Source of the DNA: Alteraurantiacibacter aestuarii
GTDB lineage: Bacteria > Pseudomonadota > Alphaproteobacteria > Sphingomonadales > Sphingomonadaceae
Length of the DNA: 64,000 nt
Direction: 5' to 3'
Assembly: GCF_009827405.1 (NCBI RefSeq)
Contig: NZ_WTYY01000001.1
Coordinates: 1-64,000 of the forward strand
The notes beneath the pieces were generated by a model. It was not told the DNA's origin. It ran no database searches and worked only from the letters and a program-made list of their open reading frames with translations. Shown here one piece after another: positions 8,764 through 22,881 of the stretch. The stretch's first letter is position 1; the number at the start of each line of letters is the position of its first letter. The translations under genes were made by a program, and so were the position numbers.

Positions 8764-9222
8764 TCAGATTGCTGAAATGATTCCGGCAGACGCCAAGGCG
8801 CCAATAAGCCCGATTATCGCATTTCGCGCCTCACTGTCGATCACTGACCCGCCCGCTGGCTCTGCCACATCGGTCGCGGCCTGCCAGCCGCCAAGGTAAT
8901 GCAGGTGCCGGGAAGCCGCCTTGTTGAAAACGCGCATGCCATCATGAGGTGAGGCGAACAGCCAGTTCCCAGATTGATATCCGGCCAGTTTTCCAGCCTG
9001 GCCTGCCCAATCTGCCGTGGGCAGATCGCCCACAAGCCAGCACTCGCCGTCCACCGGAGCAGCTGGCGGGTCCTGCGCCTCGCCTTCAACGACTGCGTGC
9101 AGCAACATGTCTGTCAGCGCATGGGCTTCATTTACGAAAAATTCCTTCTGCGCCTGGGCAGCGAACAGAAAAGGCAGGCCGAATCGCGGAGAGGATGAGG
9201 TGAAACTAATCGGGTCGGTCAT
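8764..9222 (-). CDS. DUF2793 family GTA/phage tail-associated protein
   Basis: 152 residues. It begins with the family signature FGLPFLFAAQAQKEFFVNEA, then has GECWLVGD and GNWLFASPHDGMRVFN. DUF2793 proteins occur at the downstream end of GTA and prophage tail modules in alphaproteobacteria and are thought to be tail or fibre components; the function is not known. A glycine/alanine-rich hydrophobic C-terminus (IIGLIGALASAGIISAI) is notable. Last gene of the GTA run, 24 bases behind the baseplate gene. Confidence 0.85.
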   Translation of the reverse strand: MTDPISFTSSSPRFGLPFLFAAQAQKEFFVNEAHALTDMLLHAVVEGEAQDPPAAPVDGECWLVGDLPTADWAGQAGKLAGYQSGNWLFASPHDGMRVFNKAASRHLHYLGGWQAATDVAEPAGGSVIDSEARNAIIGLIGALASAGIISAI

Positions 9223-9246: not shown

Positions 9247-11430
9247 TCAGGAAATGGTGAGGAGGTGCAGGGCGGCGGACGATGCATGATTGCCGACCTG
9301 CCTGACCCAGAGCACCTGACCCGCGTGGCTCGATTGCAGCGCTTCGAAGTCCGGAACCGAAAGATTGAGGCAGGGCTCGGTCACTTCCCACCTCACTGCG
9401 GGGCTGGCCGTATCGCCGATCCCGACAAGGTACTTCTCGGCCTGTTCGTTGATGGGAACCTCGACCCCGTCTCGCCATTCCCATGCGCCGCGTGCCCGGC
9501 GGGTCCACGACAGCGCAATTGATCCATCCGTCTTCAGCTGCATACGCGGATGGACCGGGCAAAGTGGGCGCAAGGATGCGCCAAGGCCTGCAATCTGGGC
9601 GACGACGGGGTCCGCATCCACCAGTCCGGTGGCTGCCACCGCAGTGGACAGACCCAGTTTTGCATCATCGAGCGGTACGGGTTCGTCGCCAAGCAGGATG
9701 AATGGGGTTCCGGCGGGCTTTGGTGCAAGGGCATAGCCTTCGGTGCCGCCTCTGCCGCGAAGGAAATGACTCAGCCGCCACGTCACTTCGTCCAGCCTGG
9801 TGGCGCTGGCGAACTGCACGATCTCTTCACCAATCAACGCACGATTGGCACCCTTGGCCAGCCCGGCAATTGTCGCTTCGGGCAGCTGGAAATCGGCAGA
9901 GAGCAGAGTGACATCCACTTCAATGCCGCGATCCAAGAGCGATGCGTCCGATGGCGGAAGATCGCTTTCCAGCTGGCCGATGACACTCCGCTGCCTGCCG
10001 CTCTGACCGATGGGAGCCAGCGAACCCTCTTCAACCGCATACAGGGCAGAGCCGGTCCAGCCCGCAGTGCTGGACGATGCGGCGGCAAAAACCTGGCGTT
10101 GTTCAGCCGGACCTTTGCCGTCCCAGGGCAATTCATAGGCCCGCAGGACCGTGGGCGTGGCCATCATATCGGGCGTAGTCAGGCTCTGGCCGGCATCGGC
10201 AATGGTAGATCGTGCGGGTCCATGAGGCATGCGCTGGAGCTCCAGCTCGACCCCGCTCTCGCGCCACTCCCAATTGATGATGCGCCAATAGCCTTTCCTG
10301 CCGGGCACGCGCACGACCTGACCCGGCTCGAGGCCCGGGTCCAGTTCGGCAACGCGCCATGACAGGCTTTCGCGCGCCCAACTGGCCCGCTCGGCCGCCT
10401 TGCTGGCGAGATCGCGCGCATTTTCGGCCTCAAGCGCTCCGGGAAATTCTATGATGCGACTGCGCCCGGCCCTGGCGCGGCCACCGGCGCGTTGCAAACC
10501 TGCCTGAAAATCCCGCGTGGTATCGTAATAGCGAATGCCTTCAGGAATATCGCGCAAGTCAGGCTGCCGCCGCGAGCTTTCTCCGGAAACGGAAGCGAAG
10601 CTTTCGGACCGCGGATCTGCGGCAGCTTCGGGGAGCAGTGGCGGGTTGGCTGGAATGGCTTCGGCATCGCCAATTGTGAGGTTGTTGCCGCTTGCATTGC
10701 AGATGAGCGGGTAGACCTCATCGATCACAGCAAGGCTGGAGGCAAATGATCCGCCATCTTCGCTGAAGCCCTGCAAGGTGTGCAGAGGACGTTCGACATT
10801 GGCCGGACGATCCATTCTGGGCATCATTCGCGAGAGCGAGACATCGCCATCATCGGCGATGATCTCAAAAGTCAGCGTTGGTATGCGATTGCCAAAGTCC
10901 GCCAGTTGCAGGCTCTCGAACACACAATAGGCAAGGCCGCGAAATGCCGGGCAGGATCCGCCCAGGGCCGAATCGATCAGAGGGTCTGGCTGCTGGTCGC
11001 CATGGCCGCGATAGATGCGCAACTCGCCGCCGAATTTCAGATCACCGCCAGCGCCCCGCAAGAGATTGCCATCCGCCCAGATCCTGCCGATATCCTTGAT
11101 AGGCCGGCTTGCCAGGGCGACGGCGAATGACACGGAATAGTTGTAGGTCGTGGTTGAAGGGCGTCCCTTCCCACCACCACTCTTCTCACTGTTTTCGACA
11201 AGATCGGTCGCCCAGATCACGCTGCCGGGGGTCCGGACCTTGCCATAGTGGCGCGCGATGGGCGTGCCATAGCTGGAGGTGGTGACGCGCAGTTCCTGCA
11301 GCCTGGGGCCTTCGCGGCGACCGGAGCCAGAAACCTTCTGATCGAAGGCATTGCCCAGCAGCGCACCGATCGTGCCGCCAATCGGGCCGCCAATCGCGGT
11401 ACCGACGGCGGAAAACAATATGGTTGCCAT
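9247..11430 (-). CDS. GTA baseplate/host-specificity protein (gp15-like)
   Basis: 727 residues. The N-terminus is a glycine-rich hydrophobic segment (AVGTAIGGPIGGTIGALLG), followed by YGTPIARHYGKVRTPGSVIWA, the hallmark of phage tail hub/host-specificity proteins of this family. In RcGTA gp15 is about 1300 residues and contains a TIM-barrel-like domain; here that domain appears absent and the protein is little more than half as long. It should sit at the tail tip and act in recipient attachment and DNA entry. ATG with a GAGG site 9 bases upstream. Confidence 0.85.
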   Translation of the reverse strand: MATILFSAVGTAIGGPIGGTIGALLGNAFDQKVSGSGRREGPRLQELRVTTSSYGTPIARHYGKVRTPGSVIWATDLVENSEKSGGGKGRPSTTTYNYSVSFAVALASRPIKDIGRIWADGNLLRGAGGDLKFGGELRIYRGHGDQQPDPLIDSALGGSCPAFRGLAYCVFESLQLADFGNRIPTLTFEIIADDGDVSLSRMMPRMDRPANVERPLHTLQGFSEDGGSFASSLAVIDEVYPLICNASGNNLTIGDAEAIPANPPLLPEAAADPRSESFASVSGESSRRQPDLRDIPEGIRYYDTTRDFQAGLQRAGGRARAGRSRIIEFPGALEAENARDLASKAAERASWARESLSWRVAELDPGLEPGQVVRVPGRKGYWRIINWEWRESGVELELQRMPHGPARSTIADAGQSLTTPDMMATPTVLRAYELPWDGKGPAEQRQVFAAASSSTAGWTGSALYAVEEGSLAPIGQSGRQRSVIGQLESDLPPSDASLLDRGIEVDVTLLSADFQLPEATIAGLAKGANRALIGEEIVQFASATRLDEVTWRLSHFLRGRGGTEGYALAPKPAGTPFILLGDEPVPLDDAKLGLSTAVAATGLVDADPVVAQIAGLGASLRPLCPVHPRMQLKTDGSIALSWTRRARGAWEWRDGVEVPINEQAEKYLVGIGDTASPAVRWEVTEPCLNLSVPDFEALQSSHAGQVLWVRQVGNHASSAALHLLTIS

Positions 11431-11442
11431 GATTTTTGACCT

Positions 11443-11853
11443 CTAGCTTTGGGGAAGGCGCCAATGGCCGATGGTTGGCCATGCGAGCGGGGCCGGTGTG
11501 TGAACCACTCGGCCAAGCCCGGCATGTGCGTGAACGAAGCCGCCTTCGAGGGCGGCGACTGCCAGATGGAACTGACCCGGGGCAGTCTTGAGCAGGACCA
11601 GGTCGCCCGGCTGGCAAGGTCCGTGGGCCGACATGAAACCAGCCTGATCAATGGCCGGCAGCAGATGACTGATATCCAGATTGCGCAGGCGGTAATCGGT
11701 GCAGACAGAAATCCGGCGCCCGATCTTGCGCAGGGCGCTTGTGACCAGCCCGATGCAATCGAGGCCCGTTGCCGGATCGCGGCCGTGCAACAGGAAGGGG
11801 CTGCCCGTTAGTTCCTGCGCGGCCCGGGCAAAGTCCGCAGCGCCGCAAGTCAC
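11443..11853 (-). CDS. GTA NlpC/P60-family peptidoglycan peptidase (gp14-like)
   Basis: 136 residues. The catalytic Cys33 is in GLDCIGLV and the likely catalytic His96 in FHLAV, with a second His in GFVHAHAG. In RcGTA the equivalent tail peptidase helps the tail cross the recipient cell wall. The start is the GTG that overlaps the stop of the hub gene (GTGA), which gives a good family start; a longer reading to 11946 would overlap the hub gene by almost 100 bases. Confidence 0.9.
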   Translation of the reverse strand: MTCGAADFARAAQELTGSPFLLHGRDPATGLDCIGLVTSALRKIGRRISVCTDYRLRNLDISHLLPAIDQAGFMSAHGPCQPGDLVLLKTAPGQFHLAVAALEGGFVHAHAGLGRVVHTPAPLAWPTIGHWRLPQS

Positions 11854-12671
11854 GATGCACTGGTGGGATAGCGCGACAGAAGATCGTTGCCCGGCATGAA
11901 TGGCTCTCCCTGAAAATTGGCCGCGTTCGAGAAGCGGCCCGCGCATGTCGCAATCGTGTGATCACAGCCCTCGCGCAGGACCGCACGCGCGCCCACCAAG
12001 AGATCGGCATGCAGTTCCTGATCGAGCAGCAGACCGTCCGCATCGGACCGGATGATCTGCATCGTGATCCCTGCATGCGGGCCGTCCAACCAGCGCAGGG
12101 AGCCATCCCGCAAGACGCTCGCGGCCGGGGAGGCTGCGAAGCCGACAAGGTTCACATCATGGTCAACCATGTTGCACAGCACTTCATGGGAGAAGCGTTC
12201 GGCGCTTAGGTTGCAGCCGGGCCCACAAAACTGTGCACGGCAAGTCGGGCTGGTGCGCGGGACCAGATCAGCCTGAAGCGCGGCCTTGGCAGATTGCAAT
12301 TCCACCCGGAAGCCGCCGTCCTCTTCGGAGATGGAGCCGGCCTCGCCGTGATAGAGGACTGAAAAATCGCGCGTTTCCCAATCGACAAGGCCAATCGAAA
12401 TGCGCGCCCCGTCATACCGTCCGGCAGCGAGGTCGCTCGATCTGATCGCATCATGCGCCAGCGCACCCTGCACTTCGGCACTGTCATTCTCGATGCTGGC
12501 AGAGCGACTGATTGCGGATGGCACCATGCCGGGGGCGGCCCGATGAAGCAGCCCGTCAAACCAAAGATCGCGATCATGGCTGGTGAACCCCAGCGTGTAT
12601 CCGTCGCGCCGCTTGATACGCCAGAAGGTGGCGACACCTTCCAGCTCCTGACGGAAGAATACCCGGCTCAT
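11850..12671 (-). CDS. GTA hub protein, DUF2163 / phage BR0599 family (gp13-like)
   Basis: 273 residues. The N-terminal DUF2163 part begins RQELEGVATFWRIKRRDG; the C-terminal BR0599 part carries a cysteine set, Cys144, Cys149, Cys153, Cys236 and Cys243, plus Cys166. The related lambda gpL binds an iron-sulfur cluster with its C-terminal cysteines, and an iron-sulfur site is also described for the RcGTA hub, so a cluster is likely here. FSNAANFQGEPFMPGNDLL is the family C-terminal signature. ATGA overlap with the preceding gene and GTGA with the next. Confidence 0.9.
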   Translation of the reverse strand: MSRVFFRQELEGVATFWRIKRRDGYTLGFTSHDRDLWFDGLLHRAAPGMVPSAISRSASIENDSAEVQGALAHDAIRSSDLAAGRYDGARISIGLVDWETRDFSVLYHGEAGSISEEDGGFRVELQSAKAALQADLVPRTSPTCRAQFCGPGCNLSAERFSHEVLCNMVDHDVNLVGFAASPAASVLRDGSLRWLDGPHAGITMQIIRSDADGLLLDQELHADLLVGARAVLREGCDHTIATCAGRFSNAANFQGEPFMPGNDLLSRYPTSAS

Positions 12672-15010
12672 ACGGCCTCTCGTATTTCTATCAGCGGAAC
12701 CGACGGTGCCTCACCGGCAGCAAAATTTGCACCCGCCACATCCAGCCTGTCTTCGGCAAAGCGCACGGGTACGTCGAACAGGAAGCCGGCGGTTATCGTT
12801 GAACCGGCAGGCGGCGCGATAATAAACACGATCTTGCCGCCCTGATCGAGAAGCCAGGCGCTGCTTGCAACGCCATCGATCGCGACCTGGATTGTCTCGG
12901 CGCGCGGCCGGGTAATCGGGCGGATCTGCGGATCGGCGACTTCGCCATAGGACTTGGTGAGCTGGAAGCTGGCAGTCAGCCCATCCCCCGTACCGATGTT
13001 CTGATCGAGCATTCCGGGCGTTCCCGTCATCACGTTTGAGCTGAAATCAAACGGATCGGAAAGGCGGAAACCGCGCGCCGCACCGCGTCGCGCGCGGAAG
13101 AAGCGGATCAACGTGCCGAGCTCGTTTTCAGACCGGATGCCCGGGCCGACATCGAAGCGCAGCCGGGCATCGCTCCACTGGCTGTTGCGCCTTTCATGCC
13201 CCGATGCGGTGAGCACGATGGCAGTTGAGAATTCCGGGCTGACTGCGGCATCGCGCCCCAGCGCCAGCGGATAGATCACATCGTCGAACGCTTCCATATC
13301 GTCTTCTTCCTCGTCGGGCGGCGGGGTTGGGAGGCGGGTGTATCCATCGCGGCAGACCTGGGGCAGGGCCCAGACAAACCGGCGCGGCACACCGCGGGCA
13401 ATGGCTTCATCCAGCCCGGCATCAATCAATTGCCAATGGCTCTCGGCATCCTCGGCGTTGAGAACGAAACCGGCCAGATAGTCCTGATTCTCGAGCGGAT
13501 ATTGCAGGGTTGCCTGCATGGTCTCGTAAGCCTGCCTGCGCAGCGCCTCCGCCCCCGAGGTGAGCCAGTCGTAATCCTCAAGCTGAAGGCGGTCGAATTG
13601 CGGATGCTGCCAGACGTCCGGCAGGTTCAGCAGAGGCATGTCGGGCATTTCGAGGTGCAGGATCGTAGGGGTGAAGGCCAGCAGCAGCAACTCTGCCTCC
13701 GGACCCTGTGCGTCCTTAATGTCGTTCCTGATGCTTTCTGTCGAAGTGCCAAGCCTCGCACCGGCCAGGCTCAGTGCAGCTTTCTGGGCTTCACTCAGAT
13801 CGGCGCGCATATCGGTGATGTCCGGTACTGCCGGATCGAGGATACTGCGCATGTTCGCGTCATAGATGCAGGGTTCAAAGTCGGAATTCACCCACCACCA
13901 CGGCTCCCCGATCTGGATTTTCACCGGCAGTCCAGCTTCGACCTGCAGGCGCGCAAGTTGCAGCCCAAGCTCTCGAAGATGCGTATCCACCGCGCTGTTG
14001 ACCGGGCTCAGCAGCGCAGAAGGCGGTTCCCATCCGGTCAGCGCCGGAGAGCCATCATGCGCCCGCTGCATCCAGTCTGGTGGGCAGTGCTGCGCCAGCA
14101 ATTCATAGGAATAGGACAGGATGACATCGTATCCCTGCTCCCTCCCGCTGATGAAAAGGGCGCGCAGCCAGTTGATCGCGGGGACGCACGTCAGCCGGGG
14201 GTGGTTAGCCAGCAGGGTGCCATCGGCCTGACGCTTGAGCCGATAGTAATGGCTCATCCCCAGATAGTGGAGGATCTCGTCTCGATATCCCAGGCCGCGG
14301 ATATTGCGCATCAGGCGCGTCGGTGTCTGGTTGTAACTGTCGTCATAGGCCGTCGCGATGCGCGTATCGTGCGGCGGGATCATGATATCGCCGATCGGCA
14401 GCATGGGCCGGTCACCCTCGCAGGCGATTTCGCTCAGTTCCACCCAGCCATTCACCCTTGATGCCAGCAAGCCCGGATCGGCAGGATCATAAGCGGGCGG
14501 AACCAGCGAGATGAACATGCGATCTATGCGCGAGGGCTCCACCGGGTCGGGCGCAGCGGCGATATCCCAGCCTCCCGCAAGCTGGGAAAAGGGCAGGGTG
14601 ACGAGCGCATCCGTGGGCGAGCCTTCGGCATAGTTCCACAGCCGCACATACCAGCTGCGCGGATTGCCGGCTGCGTCCTCCCCTTCGATAGTCAGCGTGG
14701 GGCCATGCACTGCATCCAGCGGCAGCACGCCTTCCGACTTCCAGCGAAAGCGCAGCGTGGTGCGCGAATAATCGCGGTCAGTATCATAGGCGAGCAGCGG
14801 GTGATCCAGCGTGTCTTCGCTTTCCCAGATCAGCCCTGCCAGCGCATCGCGGTGGTGAATCTCCAGATCCACGCGCAGCGAATCCGGCCCGGTGACATAG
14901 ACGCAAGCCATCATCGGACGCGGGAAATCGATGGTCCAGAAGCGCGGATCGAACCGCTGGATAAAGTCTGAATTCTGCCCGTCGCGTTGACGGGCCAGCC
15001 AGAATGCCAT
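12668..15010 (-). CDS. GTA distal tail protein (gp12-like, DUF2460) with large TIM-barrel-like N-terminal extension
   Basis: 780 residues. Residues 572-780 are a normal DUF2460 domain (ERRNSQWSDARLRFDVG, FFRARRGAARGFRL, FDVPVRF), which alone is the size of RcGTA gp12. It is preceded by an acidic linker (PPPDEEEDD) and then Met572. Residues 1-210 look beta-rich; 215-560 look like a glycosidase-type alpha/beta barrel: WLRALFISGREQGYDVILSY, CPPDWMQRAHDG and QIGEPWWWV with Glu369. Some phage genes annotated as non-contractile tail sheath proteins have a similar barrel. I infer a domain fusion; whether the barrel is enzymatic or only binds a surface glycan is open. Confidence 0.85.
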   Translation of the reverse strand: MAFWLARQRDGQNSDFIQRFDPRFWTIDFPRPMMACVYVTGPDSLRVDLEIHHRDALAGLIWESEDTLDHPLLAYDTDRDYSRTTLRFRWKSEGVLPLDAVHGPTLTIEGEDAAGNPRSWYVRLWNYAEGSPTDALVTLPFSQLAGGWDIAAAPDPVEPSRIDRMFISLVPPAYDPADPGLLASRVNGWVELSEIACEGDRPMLPIGDIMIPPHDTRIATAYDDSYNQTPTRLMRNIRGLGYRDEILHYLGMSHYYRLKRQADGTLLANHPRLTCVPAINWLRALFISGREQGYDVILSYSYELLAQHCPPDWMQRAHDGSPALTGWEPPSALLSPVNSAVDTHLRELGLQLARLQVEAGLPVKIQIGEPWWWVNSDFEPCIYDANMRSILDPAVPDITDMRADLSEAQKAALSLAGARLGTSTESIRNDIKDAQGPEAELLLLAFTPTILHLEMPDMPLLNLPDVWQHPQFDRLQLEDYDWLTSGAEALRRQAYETMQATLQYPLENQDYLAGFVLNAEDAESHWQLIDAGLDEAIARGVPRRFVWALPQVCRDGYTRLPTPPPDEEEDDMEAFDDVIYPLALGRDAAVSPEFSTAIVLTASGHERRNSQWSDARLRFDVGPGIRSENELGTLIRFFRARRGAARGFRLSDPFDFSSNVMTGTPGMLDQNIGTGDGLTASFQLTKSYGEVADPQIRPITRPRAETIQVAIDGVASSAWLLDQGGKIVFIIAPPAGSTITAGFLFDVPVRFAEDRLDVAGANFAAGEAPSVPLIEIREAV

Positions 15011-15021
15011 GATCTGTTCCC

Positions 15022-15600
15022 TCAGGCTTGCATCAGTGCGCGGCGCACGGAACTTGCCACCTGGCGCGATGAACGTTGCAGGGCGGTGGGCGTGTCTGTG
15101 CCCCGCGGTGCGGAAAGGTTGATGGCCACGCGCACATTGCGCGAAGCGGACGCAGCGTCAGTTCCCGTCTCGATCCTTCCGGAACTTGTCGGAACGAATA
15201 CTTCGGGGCCTCTCTCGCCCACCAGATAGGCACTGCCGGGCCCGACAGGACCGCCAGTGGCGCGGCCGGGCAGGCCAAGCAGAGAGCCAAACAGGCCTGA
15301 CAACCCTCCGGCCAATCCCCCGCCTTGCTGCGATGATCCGAACAGATTGCTAATGCCCGAGGTCAGCGCCTGCGAGGCGATTTCATTCAAGGTCTGCATG
15401 GCCACGCGTTTCAGATCGTCGAACCCCAGACTGCCGCGCCGAAGAGCGGACAGCAGGCCGCGTTCCATGACATTGGCCGCGCGGGAAAACCCATCGACCA
15501 GGTTGGTATCGAGGGTGTTGCGCATGGCCTGAACATCGGCATTGAAGCCTTGCGTTCCCGCCCGCACTTCCACCATCAGCGTGTCGATTTCATCATCCAT
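15022..15600 (-). CDS. GTA tape measure protein (gp11-like)
   Basis: 192 residues, short as in other GTAs because the particle is small. It has an N-terminal helical part and then an Ala/Gly-rich part with GLAGGLSGLFGSLLGLPGRA and the phage tape-measure C-terminal signature GRATGGPVGPGSAYLVGERG and PEVFVPTSSG. It sets tail length and is extruded on DNA transfer. The ATG at MDDEIDTLM is chosen; it overlaps the end of the chaperone gene by 8 bases. Confidence 0.87.
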   Translation of the reverse strand: MDDEIDTLMVEVRAGTQGFNADVQAMRNTLDTNLVDGFSRAANVMERGLLSALRRGSLGFDDLKRVAMQTLNEIASQALTSGISNLFGSSQQGGGLAGGLSGLFGSLLGLPGRATGGPVGPGSAYLVGERGPEVFVPTSSGRIETGTDAASASRNVRVAINLSAPRGTDTPTALQRSSRQVASSVRRALMQA

Positions 15601-15790
15601 TTGCGTCGCGCTCCAGCAGGGCTTCAAGCTCGTTGCGGTTCAAACCCGTGTCGGCCTGGCCCTCTTCGATTGTGAAAATGGCCGTCAGCTCGGCCGGGGT
15701 TACGTTCCAGAAGTCATCGGGTTTCCAGCCGAACATGCGGGTGGTCAGACCGGCCAGGAACAATGCGCTGGTGGCCAGTGTCTGGCTCAT
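15593..15790 (-). CDS. GTA tail assembly chaperone (gp10.1-like, DUF2376)
   Basis: 65 residues: an N-terminal hydrophobic stretch (TSALFLAGLTTRMFGW) and the family pattern PDDFWNVTPAELTAIF. Such proteins assist tail tube assembly on the tape measure and are not part of the particle. The ATG overlaps the stop of the previous gene (ATGA). Confidence 0.85.
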   Translation of the reverse strand: MSQTLATSALFLAGLTTRMFGWKPDDFWNVTPAELTAIFTIEEGQADTGLNRNELEALLERDANG

Positions 15791-16122
15791 GCGCTTCCTT
15801 GCAGGATCTGCTGCAGCAGGCTGCGCAGCGGTGTGGAGCAGGCCGCCAGGCCAGTTTCCATGACCGCATCGCCCATCTGCACCTGGCTGATATCGCCCCG
15901 GTCCTGACAGCAATGCCAGAACAGCGTGGCAATTTCCTGCAAGGCCAGACGGCCTTCGCCTGCACGTTCAACCAGTGCGAACAGCGGCCCGAGCTGCTCC
16001 TCCGCAGCAACCAGCGCGGCGAACGTCGGGCGCAGAATATGGCTGCGCCCACCGATGATGATCGAGGCTTCGCCACGTTGGGAGTTGGGCTGCGCATTGG
16101 GGGTGGGACCGCCAGCCGTCAT
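15787..16122 (-). CDS. GTA gp10-like tail assembly protein
   Basis: 111 residues. The core SIIIGGRSHILRPTFAALVA with AAEEQLGPLFAL fits the GTA gp10 family, a small tail assembly protein between the major tail protein and the DUF2376 chaperone. The first 17 residues are Pro/Asn/Gln-rich and probably flexible. It overlaps both neighbours by 4 bases. Confidence 0.85.
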   Translation of the reverse strand: MTAGGPTPNAQPNSQRGEASIIIGGRSHILRPTFAALVAAEEQLGPLFALVERAGEGRLALQEIATLFWHCCQDRGDISQVQMGDAVMETGLAACSTPLRSLLQQILQGSA

Positions 16123-16526
16123 GCCGGCAGGACCGCGCCCGAGCTTTCCAGCTGCATGGTATAATTGCGCTCGCCGTTGAAATCGCCGGCATAGTCCAGC
16201 CGCTGGACAAGGAAGCGACCCTGCAGTTTGGCACCGTCCTCGAAAGACAGTTCATAATTGTCGATCGTGCCGGCCAGCGCATGGGCGCGGATGGTGTTTT
16301 CGGCATCGCTGCCCAGGAAAATCCCGGCTGCGCTGACCGAGACGGAGCGCGTCCCGGCACCGGAGAGCAGATCGCGCCAGCCACCCGATTCCTTGTGAGT
16401 AATGACGACGCTGTCACCATTGATGGACATCTGTGTGGTGCGCAGACCGGCCACGGTCTGGTAGAAGGGCGGCTGTGCGCCGTCGCCGATCTTGAGGAGG
16501 AAGGCGGAGCCTTTCTGGGCTGTCAT
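16119..16526 (-). CDS. GTA major tail protein (gp9-like)
   Basis: 135 residues. It begins MTAQKGSAFLLKIGDG and has THKESGGWRDLLSGAGTRSV and SVSAAGIFLGS, typical of the TP901-1/GTA major tail tube family. It should polymerise into the tail tube. The ATG is the one 26 bases after the gp8 gene ends; a longer reading to 16595 overlaps gp8. Confidence 0.9.
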   Translation of the reverse strand: MTAQKGSAFLLKIGDGAQPPFYQTVAGLRTTQMSINGDSVVITHKESGGWRDLLSGAGTRSVSVSAAGIFLGSDAENTIRAHALAGTIDNYELSFEDGAKLQGRFLVQRLDYAGDFNGERNYTMQLESSGAVLPA

Positions 16527-16551
16527 GGCAAATTCTCCGTATGGGTTGAAA

Positions 16552-16944
16552 TCAGTCTTCGAGCAGGCGGAAGCGGTATTCGAGCAGCACCGCACGCTGA
16601 TTGAGCGCGCGTTGTTCGGCGCGTGCGCGCAGGAAAGTGGTGTTCACGATCCTGAAGCCGTCCTGCACCGCAGGCAGGCTCTCGACCCGGCTCTCGATCT
16701 GCGGGACCAGCGATGCGCCGGTGTCAGGCGCATCGCCGCGCATGTGCAGTTCGATCGCGATGCGGATCTCGCGGCCCTTCTTGTCCTTCACGCTCCAGTC
16801 GGCGCTGGCACTGGCGACAATGCCAAGCCACGGCACGGCTATGCGCGACGGGGCCTCCTCGGTGATGGAATTCAGCGTGGAGGAGAGGAATGCGTCAGCG
16901 CGCAGCCAATCGACCAGCGCGGCGCGCAGGCGGGTTTCGAACAT
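16552..16944 (-). CDS. GTA tail terminator-like protein (gp8-like, DUF3168)
   Basis: 130 residues that fit DUF3168: LRAALVDWLRADAFL, RIAVPWLGIV, SADWSVKDKKGREIRI and a basic C-terminal strand (LLEYRFRLLED). The family caps the tail at the head-tail junction. Its start abuts the stop of the small gp7-slot gene. Confidence 0.85.
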   Translation of the reverse strand: MFETRLRAALVDWLRADAFLSSTLNSITEEAPSRIAVPWLGIVASASADWSVKDKKGREIRIAIELHMRGDAPDTGASLVPQIESRVESLPAVQDGFRIVNTTFLRARAEQRALNQRAVLLEYRFRLLED

Positions 16945-17115
16945 CTATCGATCCTTGGTGAATAGCGGCCAGAGCAGCCGGGGATTGCGCCACCGGGCGG
17001 GGTCGGCCCTGCTGGCACGAAGCTGGTTCTGCGCATGTGCCCGGGCCAGCGCGGTGGCCTTTTCGACCAGAGCTTTCGCAAACCCGCTGGTGTCGGTAAT
17101 TCGCGCCGCAATCAT
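16945..17115 (-). CDS. 56-residue protein in the gp7 (head-tail stopper) position
   Basis: The ATG overlaps the stop of the adaptor gene (ATGA), which makes translation credible. The sequence is basic (about 9 Arg/Lys in the second half) with an N-terminal amphipathic helix and ends RWRNPRLLWPLFTKDR. In RcGTA this slot holds a head-tail joining protein about twice as long. I see no clear similarity to that family; it could be a divergent, shortened stopper or an unrelated connector. Confidence 0.7.
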   Translation of the reverse strand: MIAARITDTSGFAKALVEKATALARAHAQNQLRASRADPARWRNPRLLWPLFTKDR

Positions 17116-17660
17116 ATCAGGCGCAACCGGCGCCACGGGCTCCACAATGCGGCGATGGCGGCTGGCGGAACCGGCCGCGCCGCATCCATGTCTCGCTGGC
17201 GGTAGTTGTGCGCTGCCAGGCGAATAATGCCGTGGCGCAGTGCCTCGGGCAGGCTCTGCCAGTCCGGCGCAAGGCCAGCGGTGAAACGGACGGCAACCCG
17301 GCCACGAGGCGTTCGACTGCGCATGCGGATGCAGGCGCCGCCGTCGCCCTCAAGCTCTATCTCATAGCTATCAAGGTCGAGCGGGGTGCGGTTGCCTGCC
17401 ACATCAATCATGTCGACCCCGGTGATCGACTGAACCGGATAGGTTGCCAGCTTCTGCCAGTCCGACCGTGCGGGGATCACTTCCTCGCACAGCGTGTCGA
17501 TCGGCATCTGCCGGGTAAAGGCCTCGCACATGTCGAGCGCGGCGCGCAGCAGGCCGATCAGCGATGTATCGTCTTGCGGCGTGGTTATTGCGAGCCAGGA
17601 CTTCAGCTCGTCTAGAGCGCCGGGAGCCAGGATCGCCGGGGCAAGGATTACCCGCATCAT
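17112..17660 (-). CDS. GTA head-tail adaptor (gp6-like, phiE125 gp8 family)
   Basis: 182 residues. Family marks are an N-terminal helical part (LDELKSWLAITTPQDDTSLIGLL and the following CEAF), WQKLATYPVQSITGV and GRVAVRFTAGLA, then ALRHGIIRLAAHNYRQRD. It should form the ring below the portal. Two adjacent ATG codons follow a GGAGG site; the first is used. A terminator-like hairpin lies just upstream. Confidence 0.88.
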   Translation of the reverse strand: MMRVILAPAILAPGALDELKSWLAITTPQDDTSLIGLLRAALDMCEAFTRQMPIDTLCEEVIPARSDWQKLATYPVQSITGVDMIDVAGNRTPLDLDSYEIELEGDGGACIRMRSRTPRGRVAVRFTAGLAPDWQSLPEALRHGIIRLAAHNYRQRDMDAARPVPPAAIAALWSPWRRLRLI

Positions 17661-17682
17661 GGCGGCCTCCTATCTACAGGTT

Positions 17683-17738
17683 AAAAAGGTCGCACCCACG
17701 CCGCGGGGAGAGGGGATCCAGGTCGCGGCGTGGGTGCG
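17683..17738 (-). terminator. Terminator-like hairpin between capsid and adaptor genes
   Basis: Perfect 15-bp inverted repeat, CGCACCCACGCCGCG at 17691-17705 and its complement at 17724-17738, with an 18-base loop. On the coding (minus) strand it is followed by ACC and five T. It sits 70 bases after the capsid stop codon. Read-through would be needed for the tail genes, so it may act as an attenuator. Confidence 0.75.
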
Positions 17739-17808
17739 GATGTTTGCTATCCCCAGACACCGGCGATGGCCCGTAGGGCCGCGCCAGGCGCCTGGGGGCG
17801 CAAACGAA

Positions 17809-18945
17809 CTACGCTTCGATGCGCAGCAGCTTGATCGCCGCGCTATCGAGCACCTGTCCGCCCACACGCTTGGTGGCGTAGAAGTGGACGAAGGGCTTGT
17901 TGGTGAAGGGATCGCGCAGGATCTGCGTGGCGCTGCGTTCCGCGATCAGGTAACCGGCCTTGAAATTGCCGAATGCGATCGGGAATTCGCCAGCGGCCAC
18001 ATCGGGCATGTCCTCGGCTTCGATCACCGGATAGCCCAGCAGGCGGTCCGGCTGGCCTTCGACCATGCCCGGCTGCCACAGGAAGGCACCATCGGTGGTC
18101 TTGAGCTTGCGCACTTCGGACAAGGTCGAGGAATTCATCACCCAGCTGGCGCCCTGACGGTGGCCGGCCTTCATCGTGTGGACCAGATCGATCAGGCGGC
18201 TTTCCGGATTGGTGGCGAAGCCTGCCGCATCACCCGAACCGATATATTGCAGCGAGCCGAAGGGGCGCACGGCATCGCCAGCCAGCGAGACTGGCGAGGA
18301 AAGGAAGCCGAGCGGCTGATCCACACCGCTGCCGCCGACAAAGGCAGCACCTTCAGCGCGGGCAAATTCCATCGCGATTTCGCTGGCCAGCCAGCCTTCC
18401 AGATCGAAAGCGGCATCATCCAGCATGGACTGGCTTGCGGCCGGATTGGCGTACAGCTCACCGGTCGGCGGGGCGATCTCGGCAAAGTCGGGCGCTTCGG
18501 TGCCGGGACGTCCGGCAGTTTCGCCAACCCAGCCAGATGCCGTGCCACCGGTGGTGACAAGCTTGCGATAGCCGGCGCTGCCGACCTGGACGACCTGGGC
18601 GAGCTGGCGGATCGGGGAGATTTCCTTCAGCTCGCTGGCGATCATCGCATCGATTTCACGCGGGACGGCATAGCCGCCATCAGACGGCGTTACGCCAGAG
18701 ATGGACTTGATCTCCGCTTCCGAGCCGCGGCGCAGATAGCCATCGATGAAGCCTTTGACTTCGGCACTGTTGCTGCTGGCACCTTCGATAGCGGGACGCG
18801 CGGCAGCGCGGCTGACCTTGTCGAGCCGGGCCTTCACTTCGTCGACATCGGAACGCAGCACCGTGATGGCCTTTTCGGCTTCATCCTGGCGGGTGACCAG
18901 ATCGAAGCTGGCGGCCATCGCGTCGGTTTCGTTTTGCATATCCAT
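17809..18945 (-). CDS. GTA major capsid protein (gp5-like, HK97 fold)
   Basis: 378 residues from the ATG at MDMQNETDAM. An N-terminal coiled-coil scaffold-like delta segment (DEAEKAITVLRSDVDEVKARL) runs to about residue 65 and is expected to be removed by the prohead protease. The HK97 core follows (GYAVPREIDAMI, GSAGYRKLV, GWVGETAGRP, WVMNSSTLSEV, LLGYPVIEAEDMPDV). An earlier in-frame region to 19041 overlaps the protease gene and crosses a hairpin, so it is not used. The gene is flanked on both sides by terminator-like hairpins. Confidence 0.92.
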   Translation of the reverse strand: MDMQNETDAMAASFDLVTRQDEAEKAITVLRSDVDEVKARLDKVSRAAARPAIEGASSNSAEVKGFIDGYLRRGSEAEIKSISGVTPSDGGYAVPREIDAMIASELKEISPIRQLAQVVQVGSAGYRKLVTTGGTASGWVGETAGRPGTEAPDFAEIAPPTGELYANPAASQSMLDDAAFDLEGWLASEIAMEFARAEGAAFVGGSGVDQPLGFLSSPVSLAGDAVRPFGSLQYIGSGDAAGFATNPESRLIDLVHTMKAGHRQGASWVMNSSTLSEVRKLKTTDGAFLWQPGMVEGQPDRLLGYPVIEAEDMPDVAAGEFPIAFGNFKAGYLIAERSATQILRDPFTNKPFVHFYATKRVGGQVLDSAAIKLLRIEA

Positions 18946-18987
18946 TTGGGCATTCACCTTTTCTTGGGGAGGTTGGTTGGGGGGCAC

Positions 18988-19012
18988 AAAAAAGGCCGCC
19001 CCATTGGCGGCC
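18988..19012 (-). terminator. Terminator-like hairpin between protease and capsid genes
   Basis: A 7-bp all-GC stem (GGCCGCC / GGCGGCC) with a 5-base loop, followed on the coding strand by six T. It ends 42 bases before the capsid start codon and begins 25 bases after the protease stop. This is a textbook intrinsic terminator shape inside what should be one operon. Confidence 0.75.
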
Positions 19013-19037
19013 GGTCGAAGGGTTGTGGCGGCGCTTG

Positions 19038-19448
19038 TCACTGCACCATGTGCACGCGCGCGCCGTGTTGCAGGGGGTGGGTGACCAGGCTGATTTCGAA
19101 CAGGTCGATGTCTTCCAGCACGCGGCCAGCGCCCGATCCGGTGTCCGGCATGGGGCGATATCCGCGGGCGCGGTAGCCAAAGCTCAGCCCGTTGGTTTCG
19201 CGGGCCAGCAGCGCGGCCACTGCCCGGCTGCCGGGATTGTCGATCGTGGCGATCACCCGCAGTCCGCGGTCATCCTCCTCGATCAGGCTGACAGTGCCGA
19301 TGCGCTGTTCGGGCCGGTGCTGCCAATAGAGCGGAATGGGTTCCCGCCTCTGCGCCAGACTGCGCGAAAAGGCGCCGCGCACAATCACGTCGCGGGCGCC
19401 ATCGGGAATGTCGAACAAGGCGGCATAGCCTGCGATGGACAGGCTCAC
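19038..19448 (-). CDS. GTA prohead protease (gp4-like, HK97 family S78)
   Basis: 136 residues. Catalytic His44 is in PLYWQHRPEQ and Ser89 in TNGLSFGYRARG; an acidic residue in EDIDLFEISLVTHP completes the site. GYAALFDIPDGARDVIVRGAF is the family N-terminus. It matures the capsid. The start is a GTG that overlaps the preceding stop (GTGA); the longer ATG reading to 19523 runs through the previous gene. Confidence 0.9.
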   Translation of the reverse strand: MSLSIAGYAALFDIPDGARDVIVRGAFSRSLAQRREPIPLYWQHRPEQRIGTVSLIEEDDRGLRVIATIDNPGSRAVAALLARETNGLSFGYRARGYRPMPDTGSGAGRVLEDIDLFEISLVTHPLQHGARVHMVQ

Positions 19449-19753
19449 CGCAACAGGTCCGTTGCGCCCAGGCGGAAGGCAATGCCAATCAGCAGCAGCG
19501 CCATCACGCCGCGTACGGCCCATTCGATCACTGCCTTGGATGCACTGGCCTTGGCTGCCCGCCAGGCGGCCAGCAGATCGCGCAGTTCATCAAGATCGTC
19601 CTGCGCGTTCTCATCCTCCAGGCCGAGGCGATAGAGCACCCGGTCGGCACCCATCTCGCTCGCCTCCTCGACAACCGCGCGCAGCGTGACGAGGTCTGTG
19701 CCCTGGCTGGAGGCCTGCGCCATCAGCTTCGCGAGCATGTCTTCATTGGTCAT
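19445..19753 (-). CDS. Small membrane protein in the gp3.5 position, DUF6127-like
   Basis: 102 residues. The N-terminal 65 residues are charged and helical (LVTLRAVVEEASEMGADRVL, DDLDELRDLLAAW). One membrane helix sits near the C-terminus (VRGVMALLLIGIAFRLG). Sphingomonad GTA clusters have such a protein between portal and protease. The function is unknown; one membrane helix with a charged tail would also fit an anchor for prohead assembly or a holin-like part, but nothing proves that. It overlaps both neighbours by 4 bases. Confidence 0.8.
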   Translation of the reverse strand: MTNEDMLAKLMAQASSQGTDLVTLRAVVEEASEMGADRVLYRLGLEDENAQDDLDELRDLLAAWRAAKASASKAVIEWAVRGVMALLLIGIAFRLGATDLLR

Positions 19754-20913
19754 GATTTTCCTTTCGCCGGCTTGGCCAGACCAAGCATTTCACGTTTTTC
19801 ACCATCTTCGAGGAAGTCCGCGGCGGACACCTGCGACCACAATTTCTCGCGATCTTCGGACAGGGCCGGAACACGGTCGAGATCGACGGCCAGCTGCATG
19901 CCGGGGAAGGAGGCGCGCAGCCCCTCCTCCAGACCGGAGAGGATCTTGCCGGTCAGCGGCAACAGGGTGAGCCTCCACAAGGCGCGATTGGCCTCGCGGT
20001 AATTGGAGTAGGTATTGTCACCCGGCAGGCCCAGCAGCATCGGCGGCACGCCAAATGCCAGCGCGATGTCGCGCGCAGCCGCCGCTTTCAGCTCGGCAAA
20101 GTCCATGTCCGCCGGGGAAAGCGAGAGGCTCTGCCATTTGAGGCCACCTTCGAGCAGCATCGGGCGGCCGGCATTGCCGCCCCCGGCATAGGCCTGGCTC
20201 AGTTCGGCCTTCAGCCGGTCAAACTGGTCGCTGGTCAATCCGCCGGCATCGGCGCCGCCATCATAGACCAGCGCGCCAGACGGACGGGCCGCGTTTTCCA
20301 GCAGGGCGCGGTTCCATTCGGCAGAGGCATTGTGGATCGCCACCGCCTGCGCCGCCGCGGTCAGGCAGCCTGCGCCATAATGATCGTCTGCCGGATGGAA
20401 GGCCTTGAGGTGGATCAGGCAGGGCCAGCCATTCTCGTCTTCCGCGGGAATGGTGATGGCGCGGTCACCCACCTTGTAGCGGTAGGAAGCTGGCCAGCCA
20501 TTGTCGCCCGGCACCACCGTCACCCGCTCGGGCCGCAGGGCGAACAGTTCGACCGGATCGCCCGCACCATCGCGGATGATCTGGATAAAGCCATTGCCGT
20601 GCAGCAGCAGATGGGCAGCCAACGTTTCCAGCAGGGACTGGCCCGCACTGGTGGCGCGGACCAGCCGCAGCACCGCATCATCGGTTTGCTGGAGCGGAAC
20701 GCTGCCGACGCTTTCCGAAACGATGCGAACCGCGCGCTGCGCCACCGGATTGTCCAGGAAGGCCCGGCCCACGTCGCGGCAGTAATCGAATGGCGCCCGC
20801 GCGCCGCCCGGCTCATGCGCCCACGACCAGGGCGAGGCGAAGCTGCGGGCAAGCGGAACGTGGCCCGCGCCCCCGCCCTTGAAGGCAGAGCGCAGGCTGT
20901 CGATGAAGGACAT
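19750..20913 (-). CDS. GTA portal protein (gp3-like, HK97 family)
   Basis: 387 residues. Family signatures are FLDNPVAQRAVRIVSESVGS, HLLLHGNGFIQIIRD, ELFALRPERVTVV, AARDIALAFGVPPMLLGLPG and DNTYSNYREANRALW. It forms the dodecameric DNA gate at the capsid vertex. AAGGA lies 8 bases before the ATG at MSFIDSLRSAF; the longer reading to 20940 would overlap the terminase gene. Confidence 0.92.
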   Translation of the reverse strand: MSFIDSLRSAFKGGGAGHVPLARSFASPWSWAHEPGGARAPFDYCRDVGRAFLDNPVAQRAVRIVSESVGSVPLQQTDDAVLRLVRATSAGQSLLETLAAHLLLHGNGFIQIIRDGAGDPVELFALRPERVTVVPGDNGWPASYRYKVGDRAITIPAEDENGWPCLIHLKAFHPADDHYGAGCLTAAAQAVAIHNASAEWNRALLENAARPSGALVYDGGADAGGLTSDQFDRLKAELSQAYAGGGNAGRPMLLEGGLKWQSLSLSPADMDFAELKAAAARDIALAFGVPPMLLGLPGDNTYSNYREANRALWRLTLLPLTGKILSGLEEGLRASFPGMQLAVDLDRVPALSEDREKLWSQVSAADFLEDGEKREMLGLAKPAKGKS

Positions 20914-20936
20914 ATGATTTTCCTTGTTCTGTGAAG

Positions 20937-22268
20937 TCACACGCGCAGCACGCGCGGATCACTGCGCGTGGTCAGCATTAATTCGCTAAGTGCCCAGACC
21001 AGCGCATCGGCGCGGTCCGGGCTTCGTCCGGGGCCTTCGTAACTGCCCCCGGCCATCAGTCCGCACAGCTGGTCTTCCAGCCGGGCGAACTGGCCGATGT
21101 GGTGCACGCGGCCTGCTTCATACAAAGCGGCGACAGGCTCTGCCCGGGCGGATTTGCCGCGGCTGGCATGAACCAGGCGGATCGGCATCTGGCAGTTCGC
21201 TGCGCGCAGCACGCTTTCCACCATCTGCCCGCCCTGATTGGCCTCTGCTACCACGCGGTCGGCGTTCCACGCCTGCATTGCGGCGGCCACGGCCTGTGCC
21301 CAGCGTTCCGGACTGGCCTTTGCAACCGAGCAATCGGCCAGCACCTTGCCATTGCCGCCTGCCGTAACTCCGGCGACAATGATGCCGCATTCATCACCCC
21401 GCGCCGAGGCAGGCGGATCGACCCCCACCACGATGCGGGTGATGTCCTCGCCCGGGGCCACCTCGCGGCAGCGGTCGAGCAGCGAGCGGCTCCACAATGC
21501 GCCTTCGATATCCTCCAGCAGTTCACCTTCGAGTTCCTGCCGCCCCAGTGCGGTGCGGCCAAACTGCTTGCGCATGGCTTTCAAAAAGCGCGTGGGCAGG
21601 TTTGCCCCGTTGTCCCACGTTCTGCCCTTGGTAACGGCGATGCTGCCGTCCCTGGCTTCATCCATCAGGCGGCGCATCAGCGGCACCGCGCGCGGCGTGG
21701 TGGTGGCCAACAGGCGCGGCCTCTCGCTCAGCCGCATGCCCAGCAGCAGATTGTCCCACGCCTGCACCGCGCGGTCGGAAGCATTGTCCCATTTGGCGAT
21801 CTCGTCACACCATGCATGGCTGTGCTGCGGGCCGCGCAGGCTCTCCGGCTCGGCAGCCGAATAGAGGAAAGCCTGCGCCCCGTTGGCCCATGTCAGTCGT
21901 CGCAGCGACGATTCAAATCGTGGCGGCGGCCCATCACCGTGGCAGGCCAGGATACCGCTTTCGCCCTCCACCATGACAGCGCGCGCTTCGCCGATGGAGG
22001 ACCCGACCAGCGCGATGCGGGCATCGGGATCGGAGCGGGCGATCTTGCCGACCCATTCCGATCCTGCTCGCGTCTTGCCGAAACCGCGCCCGGCACAGAT
22101 CAGCCAGATTCGCCAATCCCCATCCGGGGGCAGTTGTTCGGGCCTGGCCCAATAGGACCAGTGCGAGAACAGTTGTTTGCGTTCGCCTTCCTCAAGACCA
22201 GCCAGGAAATCGGCACGCTGCGCAGGATCGCGGGTAATCAGCCAGCGCAGCCGCTCAATCGAGCCCAT
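20937..22268 (-). CDS. terL: GTA terminase large subunit (gp2-like)
   Basis: 443 residues, the DNA-packaging motor. ATPase: Walker A GRGFGKT at 60-66 and Walker B HAWCDE with Asp155 and catalytic Glu156; ATTTPRAVPL is the coupling motif. RNase H-like nuclease: Asp284 in VGVDP, Glu342 in VVAEANQGG, and Asp418/Asp421 in SPDRADALVWAL. All catalytic residues are present, so the gene looks functional. It overlaps the small terminase gene by 14 bases. Confidence 0.95.
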   Translation of the reverse strand: MGSIERLRWLITRDPAQRADFLAGLEEGERKQLFSHWSYWARPEQLPPDGDWRIWLICAGRGFGKTRAGSEWVGKIARSDPDARIALVGSSIGEARAVMVEGESGILACHGDGPPPRFESSLRRLTWANGAQAFLYSAAEPESLRGPQHSHAWCDEIAKWDNASDRAVQAWDNLLLGMRLSERPRLLATTTPRAVPLMRRLMDEARDGSIAVTKGRTWDNGANLPTRFLKAMRKQFGRTALGRQELEGELLEDIEGALWSRSLLDRCREVAPGEDITRIVVGVDPPASARGDECGIIVAGVTAGGNGKVLADCSVAKASPERWAQAVAAAMQAWNADRVVAEANQGGQMVESVLRAANCQMPIRLVHASRGKSARAEPVAALYEAGRVHHIGQFARLEDQLCGLMAGGSYEGPGRSPDRADALVWALSELMLTTRSDPRVLRV

Positions 22269-22776
22269 TGGTCGCCTGTTCGCCGTCCGCCAGCAGGATC
22301 TTCACCTGCGCCTCGCGCGCCCGGATCGCGTCGATCTTTTCGTTGAGTGAGGCGAGAATGCTCTCTTCATCCTGGTGCGAACGGATGGACCGTTCATGTG
22401 CCACCGTTTCCCGGTGATGCGTCAGCAGGCGCAGGGCATTGGCGATATCGAACTTGTTGTCATCCTTGCCTGTGCCAGCGCGCAGGCGGTGGAGCGTTTC
22501 CATTTCCAGATGCGCATATCCTTCGAGCAGCGCATCATACCAACTTGCGGCAAAGGCCGGTTCTTCCCGGCGCACCTTGTAGGCGCGGCTGGGGTTGATC
22601 CCGGCCATGCGCGCGGCGGCGCTGACGTTCGATGTTTCGGCCAGCGTATCGAGGAACAGGCCGCGCCAGTGTCGGTTGAGATTGTCCTTCTCGCCGACCT
22701 TGAACTGCGGTTTGATCTTGGTTGCCTTGGTCGCTGCCGTTCTTGCCTGTCCTGCCATATGACTCGCTTCATTCAT
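22255..22776 (-). CDS. GTA small terminase-like protein (gp1 position)
   Basis: 173 residues. It starts MNEASHMAGQ; a second ATG six codons on is possible. A basic, Thr/Lys-rich N-terminus (TAATKATKIKPQFKVGEKD) precedes a helix-turn-helix (FLDTLAETSNVSAAARMAGI, NPSRAYKVRREEP) and a coiled-coil C-terminus (ASLNEKIDAIRAREAQVKIL). Position, HTH and overlap with the large terminase fit TerS. In RcGTA gp1 is a TerS with weak DNA specificity, which goes with random packaging. No good ribosome site is visible, and a terminator-like hairpin ends 19 bases before the start. Confidence 0.82.
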   Translation of the reverse strand: MNEASHMAGQARTAATKATKIKPQFKVGEKDNLNRHWRGLFLDTLAETSNVSAAARMAGINPSRAYKVRREEPAFAASWYDALLEGYAHLEMETLHRLRAGTGKDDNKFDIANALRLLTHHRETVAHERSIRSHQDEESILASLNEKIDAIRAREAQVKILLADGEQATNGLD

Positions 22777-22795
22777 GAGCTGCGGAGCGCGAACG

Positions 22796-22825
22796 AAAAA
22801 GGGCAGCCCTGCGGGGCCGCCCTTT
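22796..22825 (-). terminator. Terminator-like hairpin in the GTA leader
   Basis: On the minus strand a 12-bp stem (AAAGGGCGGCCC / GGGCTGCCCTTT, one G-U pair) with loop CGCA runs into five T. It lies between a promoter-like sequence and the small terminase start, so transcripts from that promoter would meet it before the first gene. Confidence 0.72.
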
Positions 22826-22852
22826 CGAATCGCCTTATCTCGATGTTCCGTT

Positions 22853-22881
22853 TCTCTAACCAAAGAGTGTCACGATGTCAA
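22853..22881 (-). promoter_or_regulatory. Possible promoter of the GTA cluster
   Basis: On the minus strand TTGACA (22881-22876) is followed after 17 bases by TAGAGA. The -35 box is perfect, the -10 is weak. A start near 22846 would give a leader of about 70 bases containing the hairpin. No TTAA-N7-TTAA CtrA box is seen here. Confidence 0.35.

Follow-up and report, generated by a model that had tools for sequence, protein, structure and literature searches.

The gene considered here lies in a 64,000-nucleotide stretch of the Alteraurantiacibacter aestuarii genome (contig NZ_WTYY01000001.1, positions 1 to 64,000; hereafter the window), on the minus strand from 15010 down to 12668, and encodes a 780-residue protein in which the distal tail protein of a gene transfer agent (GTA) of the RcGTA type is preceded by an N4-type sheath N-domain and a TIM barrel; the plus-strand frame across 12668-15010 is interrupted by five stops. 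All three domains lie far above the Pfam cut-offs, residues 576-777 matching DUF2460 with an E-value of 8.5e-72, and the protein scores 193.4 bits against TIGR02217, the Rcc01695 distal tail family in NCBIfam, whose curated cut-off is 136.65. Among structures in the PDB, the C-terminus (574-777) matches the RcGTA distal tail protein, residues 275-557 match gp64 of phage N4 and residues 14-91 match N4 gp65. Judged by sequence comparison, these matches to domain families are far beyond chance; the identity of the domains is itself not new, because Pfam already names both of the extra ones. A first-pass annotation, made from the letters of the window, had taken the C-terminal 209 residues for a complete RcGTA gp12 beginning at a methionine, and the product read from Met572 agrees with it in length and in both family matches. 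Around the gene, an RcGTA-type head-tail set lies in one cluster of ~14 kb (terminase, portal, protease, capsid, tail tube, gp10 chaperone, distal tail, hub, peptidase, megatron), and the locus is, by this predicted gene content, an RcGTA-like head-tail cluster. The gene is assigned as the distal-tail gene (g12) of an RcGTA-like GTA of Sphingomonadales, near Alteraurantiacibacter (Erythrobacteraceae); the closest named relative of the fusion protein, at 71%, belongs to Alteraurantiacibacter aquimixticola, order Sphingomonadales. All three domains are under purifying selection, with median ratios of nonsynonymous to synonymous substitution rates (dN/dS) of 0.32, 0.35 and 0.27 (531 pairs, 81 sequences).

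Translation from Met572 (codon 13297-13295) yields exactly 209 residues, and this codon looks like a conserved internal start. ATG, GTG or TTG stands at the codon or the next one in all 58 fusions of a set drawn from 79 intact fusions in genomes picked with Pfam hidden Markov models (HMMs), near-copies having been removed (40, 16 and 2, respectively), and in 167 of 168 members of a wider 75%-non-redundant set. Where the column holds valine, the codon is always GTG (52/52, against a background of 0.50), and where it holds leucine, always TTG (8/8, background 0.12); among 772 columns this is the only one with at least 10 valine or leucine rows and more than 90% GTG or TTG (60/60). A FastTree tree of the 162 rows with a start at the exact codon requires at least 39 changes among the three start codons. 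The Shine-Dalgarno score ahead of the internal start is the highest of all columns, 4.71 versus 4.13 for the gene's own start and a mean of 1.47, and the starts of stand-alone distal tail genes score lower (mean 3.66; 22 of 38 with a match of at least 4). Because the acidic linker by itself raises the chance of Shine-Dalgarno matches, the signal was compared with a synonymous-codon null: a match of at least 4 is present in 57 of the 58 fusions, the null having a mean of 37 and a maximum of 46, and in both fusion sets the null stayed below the observed signal in 500 of 500 simulations. In 32 of the 38 stand-alone distal tail proteins that could be anchored (7 of 45 could not), the start lies two or three codons ahead of a conserved phenylalanine; the codon of the fusion lies at -3. 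Fusions of the barrel to the hub protein served as a negative control, and at their nine distinct junctions no start codon with a match of at least 4 was found within 15 codons of the hub domain. The internal start is also kept in six loci with a broken or partly deleted barrel and in the faecal scaffold MT840053. The methionine and the acidic linker, both already remarked on in the first-pass annotation, have the appearance of a start codon and of codons that double as a ribosome-binding site, and since the start codons are conserved and the Shine-Dalgarno signal exceeds the synonymous null, one frame probably makes both a long barrel protein and a 209-residue distal tail protein.

Reading through the junction also appears to be maintained. 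The frame is open throughout in the 397 intact fusions (397 of 406 passed the intactness filter), and the linker, whose length between two conserved residues ranges from 12 to 23 residues in the 164 rows (of 168) that could be anchored, has undergone at least 51 length changes, always in frame. In the six loci with a damaged barrel the lesion sits in the barrel and not in the linker. Start codons, Shine-Dalgarno signal and in-frame linker together indicate that read-through and the internal start are both under selection.

The extra 571 residues are predicted to contain a TIM barrel that resembles those of glycosidases and is of the type found in non-contractile tail sheaths of phages. An AlphaFold2 model built from an alignment of 67 fusions, with a mean predicted local distance difference test score (pLDDT) of 92 and a predicted template modelling score (pTM) of 0.85, contains a confident eight-stranded barrel (strands 216-221, 245-249, 295-301, 364-368, 440-446, 474-478, 509-512 and 543-546); confidence drops at residues 561-610 (block means 49-78), with pLDDT below 50 at 568-570 and 604-610. 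The best fold match in the PDB is N4 gp64 (Z 29.8 over 296 residues, 31% identity), and further matches include a Thermus beta-galactosidase (Z 22.5, 9% identity), the C-terminal domain of PgaB (Z 22.2), beta-amylases and the distal tail protein of phage R4C (8gtc_G, Z 19.1). The top three among viral models are tail proteins of Acinetobacter phage IMEAB3, Escherichia phage Goslar and Aeromonas phage MJG. The likeness of the first 571 residues to a glycosidase barrel, proposed in the first-pass annotation, is upheld by the Pfam match, the model and the fold matches to N4 gp64 and glycosidases. As observations on related phages, the barrel profile is split over two proteins in N4 (L479), where it covers positions 5-47 of gp65 and 60-345 of gp64, and has a similar split in Phobos gp33/gp34 and in PspYZU01 (Phobosvirus; L484, L485).

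The motif QIGEPWWWV, singled out earlier for its Glu369, is present, and Glu369 stands right after strand 364-368, the fourth of the barrel. Asp223, Asp224, His254, Glu303, Glu369, Glu478, Tyr480, Trp547 and Asp555 are invariant in the 58 non-redundant fusions; Glu303, Glu369, Glu478 and Trp547 are also kept in 337 of 337 barrels of a wider set that includes phages of other hosts, a count that is partly circular, as each of the five contig scans had GEPWW among its patterns, and the case for conservation therefore rests on the 58 HMM-picked fusions. Glycoside hydrolases of clan A (GH-A) carry the acid/base glutamate at strand 4 and a second catalytic glutamate at strand 7. Glu369, with a catalytic role that is only predicted, occupies the end of strand 4 in all 58; a nucleophile glutamate at the end of strand 7 was not found in the predicted model, where strand 7 (509-512) is followed by the invariant Gly514-Phe515. 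The modelled site resembles an active site and is not the standard GH-A pair, because the second invariant glutamate, Glu478, ends strand 6 and not strand 7.

Table 1. Features of the fusion gene and of its head-tail cluster in the window.
Feature	Position	Strand	Basis
Long product, 780 residues: N4-type sheath N-domain, TIM barrel, distal tail protein	12668..15010	-	Open reading frame, Pfam, NCBIfam, PDB, model
NCTSP_N (PF23844), residues 17-207	14390..14962	-	Pfam, E 6e-95
TIM-barrel_NCTSP (PF23845), residues 212-557	13340..14377	-	Pfam, E 2.1e-146; Glu303, Glu369, Glu478, Trp547 invariant
Predicted short product, 209 residues: stand-alone distal tail protein (DUF2460/TIGR02217, RcGTA gp12)	12668..13297	-	Sequence
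Putative internal ATG start, Met572, in frame	13295..13297	-	ATG/GTG/TTG at codon (57) or next (1), 58/58 fusions
Shine-Dalgarno-like GAGGA ahead of internal start, within acidic-linker codons	13308..13312	-	Four-base consensus match, read from sequence; signal tested family-wide
Hub protein (RcGTA gp13, TIGR02218)	11850..12671	-	Pfam, NCBIfam
NlpC/P60 peptidase (RcGTA gp14-like)	11443..11946	-	Pfam
Shortened megatron (RcGTA gp15-like), 727 residues, without peripheral TIM-barrel domain	9247..11430	-	Pfam, NCBIfam, alignment, model
DUF2793 protein at cluster end	8764..9222	-	Pfam
Upstream head-tail genes: terminase large subunit, portal, protease, capsid, connector, tail completion, tail tube, GTA-gp10 chaperone, TAC chaperone	15022..22863	-	Pfam
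Putative terminase small subunit, 202 residues, no Pfam hit	22255-22863	-	Position only
Putative tape measure, 201 residues, no Pfam hit	15022-15627	-	Position only

The megatron of the cluster lacks the domain that bears the barrel in RcGTA. PMC7296036 divides the RcGTA megatron into an iris (1-46), an adhesin-like (47-229), a peripheral (230-744), a central (745-984) and a fibre-binding part (985-1304). The gp15-like protein of the window aligns to residues 1-204 and 869-1269, with nothing aligned to 230-744; it retains the Phage-tail_3 and Rcc01698_C domains of Pfam, and with the peripheral domain absent it scores 376.8 bits against the megatron family NF048004, under the curated cut-off of 800. 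Its model is beta-rich with no barrel pattern (pLDDT 82, pTM 0.46), and the 50 PDB matches listed for it begin with tail-tip hubs, continue lower in the ranking with beta-sandwich proteins such as cytokine receptors, and include no TIM-barrel enzyme. GTA_TIM (PF13547), the barrel family of RcGTA, was not found in the window's own genome, which is 69.7% complete. The first-pass annotation had thus described the gp15-like protein correctly as barrel-free at 727 residues, and its interpretation stands in part: a glycosidase-like, sheath-kind barrel does sit on another tail protein than in RcGTA. The notion that the RcGTA barrel itself was relocated from the megatron to the distal tail protein is rejected, as GTA_TIM and the NCTSP barrel have no profile similarity (hhalign probability about 1%), and nothing supports the proposed adaptation to glycosphingolipids, the same barrel being present in phages of Escherichia, Acinetobacter, Achromobacter and Pseudomonas. 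These hosts are not known to have glycosphingolipids. At the end of the cluster, the DUF2793 gene has a match in 15 of the 15 related loci tested and is a candidate tail fibre or adaptor.

The exchange was followed in 101 loci, namely the window and 100 fetched ones (59 of the order's 79 DUF2460 places, the full 39 that a class sample has beyond the order, and two with GTA_TIM only), in which megatrons were read with purpose-built HMMs and 12 unreadable loci were left uncounted. In each of the 50 distal-tail fusions whose megatron could be read, that protein is short, with a gap of 35-80 residues at the peripheral-domain site, and the same holds for the three loci with a hub-fused barrel (44-46 residues); among 36 NCTSP-free loci the gap is long in 34, measuring 515-772 residues in the 21 with GTA_TIM and 366-459 in the 13 without. 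The two exceptions, L107 with a short megatron (69 residues) and L065 with a gap of 124, are both placed well away from the GTA group by the distal tail and hub trees. In a wider set chosen by the barrel, 274 further loci have gaps of at most 90 residues and two (L297 and L432, one contig) of 93. A rule that every megatron slot holds a barrel unless another protein does is not supported, given the 13 long megatrons that carry a 366-459-residue region without GTA_TIM; in the loci read, the narrower rule survives that an NCTSP barrel accompanies an empty megatron slot. Three of these 13 slot regions were scanned (L044, L084, L098) and had no Pfam match, and five of the non-GTA_TIM regions align with few shared residues. 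In L044, L084, L098, L102 and L106, where the region in the peripheral slot measures 366-432 residues, some stretches recall beta-propeller repeats by eye.

The distal-tail fusion is concentrated in Sphingomonadales. Of 147 genomes sampled from the order, 72 have TIM-barrel_NCTSP, 75 have DUF2460 and none has GTA_TIM, while the class sample of 240 genomes contains three with NCTSP, 24 with GTA_TIM and 37 with DUF2460, and no genome with both barrels; two of the three NCTSP genomes belong to the window's family, and in the third, G303, the barrel is not fused to the distal tail protein. The first-pass annotation would have been refuted by a fold without a barrel or by the same extension on all GTA gp12 homologues, those of Rhodobacterales included; the predicted fold does contain a barrel, and in the class sample all 39 DUF2460 places beyond Sphingomonadales lack a fused NCTSP barrel. 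The order of G155 has GTA_TIM in 33 of 40 genomes and NCTSP in 0 of 40, the NCTSP search there having returned no match at all, controls included, though the family was detected in other samples. In the phylum sample NCTSP occurs in 10 of 299 genomes, nine of the window's family and one below the cut-off. Among the best 80 of 563 loci from named genomes, which are biased to close kin, 75 are from Sphingomonadales, four are unplaced and one is labelled Rhodobiaceae; the last, a 4.4-kb metagenome contig, is the only hint that the fusion occurs beyond the order, and its binning may be wrong. Two genomes, G013 (L047, L048) and G026 (L050, L049), carry a distal-tail-type cluster and a hub-type locus each. 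In the six damaged loci (L039, L043, L053, L062, L063, L064) the barrel frame is broken or part of it missing, and the distal tail frame and internal start remain.

On the barrel tree the distal-tail fusions group together (support 93/94), and the hub fusions form a single group (100/97) apart from them, on the Loki, N4 and Phobos side of the tree; on the hub tree the distal-tail fusions are again one group (93/91). Well-supported branches of the distal tail tree force two changes, which speaks against a single fusion origin or implies a later loss, and with the trees opposed in this way a single origin is not proven. The viral contig L381 is nested among the distal-tail fusions on the barrel tree and has a C-terminus different from the distal tail protein. 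A frame of 32,612 residues listed for G199 sits at a masked stretch (3,701 N in L083).

The explanation that best accounts for the whole, and that we regard as quite probable, is a g12 frame with two starts, a mixed tail ring, and a glycan-acting barrel that replaces the peripheral domain of the megatron. From the first start would come the 780-residue protein, in which the N4-type sheath N-domain and the glycoside-hydrolase-like TIM barrel are joined through a short flexible linker to the distal tail protein; initiation at Met572, the second start, would give the 209-residue distal tail protein by itself. The distal tail protein of RcGTA is a hexamer at the tail end whose N-terminal residue shares in the contact with hub and megatron, and a six-fold ring there meets a three-fold baseplate, as stated in PMC7296036. 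Long and short proteins may both enter this ring, part or all of its subunits carrying a barrel on a flexible tether, and because the N-terminal residue makes its contact with hub and megatron there, a tethered barrel would sit beside the baseplate. In N4, according to PMC12633501, gp64-gp65 heterodimers form a six-fold sheath round the tail and gp65 binds the receptor; from the ring position in RcGTA and this sheath, a role on glycans at adsorption and a mixed ring are to be expected. We read the barrel as a predicted glycan-binding or glycan-cutting arm on the GTA tail ring, which would bind, and probably cleave, a surface or matrix glycan during adsorption and take the place of the megatron's peripheral domain. 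The second start might let the cell set the number of barrels per ring, the ratio of long to short being fixed by the two starts. A more specific version, which we put forward as speculative and rather doubtful, is that the second start is an assembly device: a fixed mixture, for example three and three, would let a six-fold ring show three barrels to the three-fold baseplate in replacement of the three peripheral barrels lost from the megatron, enzyme and carrier both having changed and the copy number having been regained.

Several observations weigh against this explanation. One fusion of the 168, L144, has no start codon at the internal position; the Shine-Dalgarno match of the window itself is only 4 bases; six fetched loci of the order have a damaged barrel, so that either the barrel can be lost or the assemblies are faulty; the compared fusions were selected as fused frames, which limits the test of read-through; and the second invariant glutamate, Glu478, ends strand 6, so that glycan cleavage by a standard retaining mechanism can only be supposed. 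One rival is a plain fusion in which only the 780-residue protein is made and the internal start is a relic of a once separate g12. That 397 intact fusions are open throughout accords with it, and since stand-alone g12 genes start at the same place, a relic start would be expected in young fusions. We nevertheless find it improbable, because at least 39 changes among ATG, GTG and TTG have left every valine at the column encoded by GTG (52/52) and every leucine by TTG (8/8), because the Shine-Dalgarno signal exceeded the synonymous null in all 500 simulations, and because the nine hub-fusion junctions have no comparable start. Slightly less probable still is that two proteins act apart, the barrel being effectively separate and the read-through product incidental or cleaved at the linker. 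The low model confidence at 561-610 would suit such an arrangement, as would Lokivirus and the hub-type prophages, which carry the barrel elsewhere than on the distal tail protein; against it, the linker changed length at least 51 times without ever losing the frame, a partial test among fusions chosen as fused frames, and the six damaged loci carry their damage in the barrel.

A further rival is that the barrel, without catalysing anything, binds a receptor or serves a structural purpose as sheath domains do, and this we take as a serious alternative, though the weaker one. It draws on N4, whose six-fold gp65-gp64 sheath includes the receptor-binding protein gp65 (PMC12633501), and on the second invariant glutamate at strand 6 instead of 7, but the invariant Asp, His, Glu, Tyr and Trp residues, which form a ring close to the ends of the strands, have the look of an active site, and Glu303, Glu369, Glu478 and Trp547 are kept also in phages of other hosts. 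In favour of a prophage or phage remnant in place of a GTA, related barrel phages exist, hub-type barrels occur on viral contigs of 7 to 41 kb, and the viral collection lists many of these clusters as viral. The 158 distal-tail-type loci on viral contigs, by contrast, are on contigs no longer than 28.2 kb, with only three reaching 20 kb or more, and among 50,697 phage records a single place covers at least 80% of the protein, on a 5.4-kb faecal scaffold. The flanking genes, MFS-, SOD- and DedA-like (names assigned by eye), have matches in 9, 9 and 8 of 15 chosen same-family loci (14 genomes), and in L120, L121, L122, L129 and L130, from five genera, all three stand in the window's order on both flanks. 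By these flanks the cluster is vertically inherited at a fixed chromosomal place; synteny and contig size disfavour a recently inserted prophage, and we consider a prophage or phage remnant of any kind very unlikely. The faecal scaffold (L477, MT840053.1, 5368 bp, filed as human faecal 'Bacteriophage sp.') resembles a fragment of such a GTA cluster in which the barrel frame is broken, and may be misfiled as phage.

How gene transfer agents recognise their recipients is an open question, and a whole order here offers a natural experiment, with another barrel, another carrier protein and the old peripheral domain gone. The exchange suggests that the baseplate periphery serves as an exchangeable tool for glycans, and it supplies exact residues to test. 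The short distal tail protein would escape any annotation or proteomic survey built on one protein per frame, and simply knocking out the fusion would abolish both products together. In the open literature searched, the larger result lists of which were only sampled, neither the fusion nor the barrel exchange nor the internal start was found reported.

Among the nearest known systems is RcGTA itself: residues 574-777 of the fusion align end to end with its distal tail protein Rcc01695 (g12; PDB 6tba; E 5.6e-42), and the order g12, hub, peptidase, megatron is common to both, whereas RcGTA g12 has 210 residues and no barrel. Its megatron g15 (NF048004, with GTA_TIM) shares with that of the window the adhesin-like N-terminal part and the fibre-binding part, and differs in having the peripheral barrel domain. 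With phage N4 (gp65 and gp64; PDB 9lc0, 9yf5) the fusion shares the N-domain family and the barrel family, NCTSP_N and TIM-barrel_NCTSP both being present as in a gp65-type sheath protein, and gp64 is 31% identical; N4, however, is a podovirus in which the barrel profile extends over two proteins and is not joined to a distal tail protein. The fusion protein did not match gp65 over its long C-terminal part; it matches two gp65 stretches (best chain 53-130) and ends in the distal tail protein. Lokivirus (phages Loki and Halfdan) likewise has the barrel in a tail protein encoded beside the distal tail gene, but as a protein that directly follows that gene, and in the hub-type prophages of Alphaproteobacteria, where the barrel is again in a tail protein beside the distal tail gene and the megatron is short (3/3), it is fused to the hub, with no comparable internal start at the junction. 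For the two-start arrangement a parallel, one of working only and in an unrelated protein and machine, is offered by the SctQ/SpaO/Spa33/HrcQ genes of type III secretion, in which, as PMC12132427, PMC6925163 and PMC8553256 describe, an internal start within a single frame gives a C-terminal short form in addition to the full-length protein.

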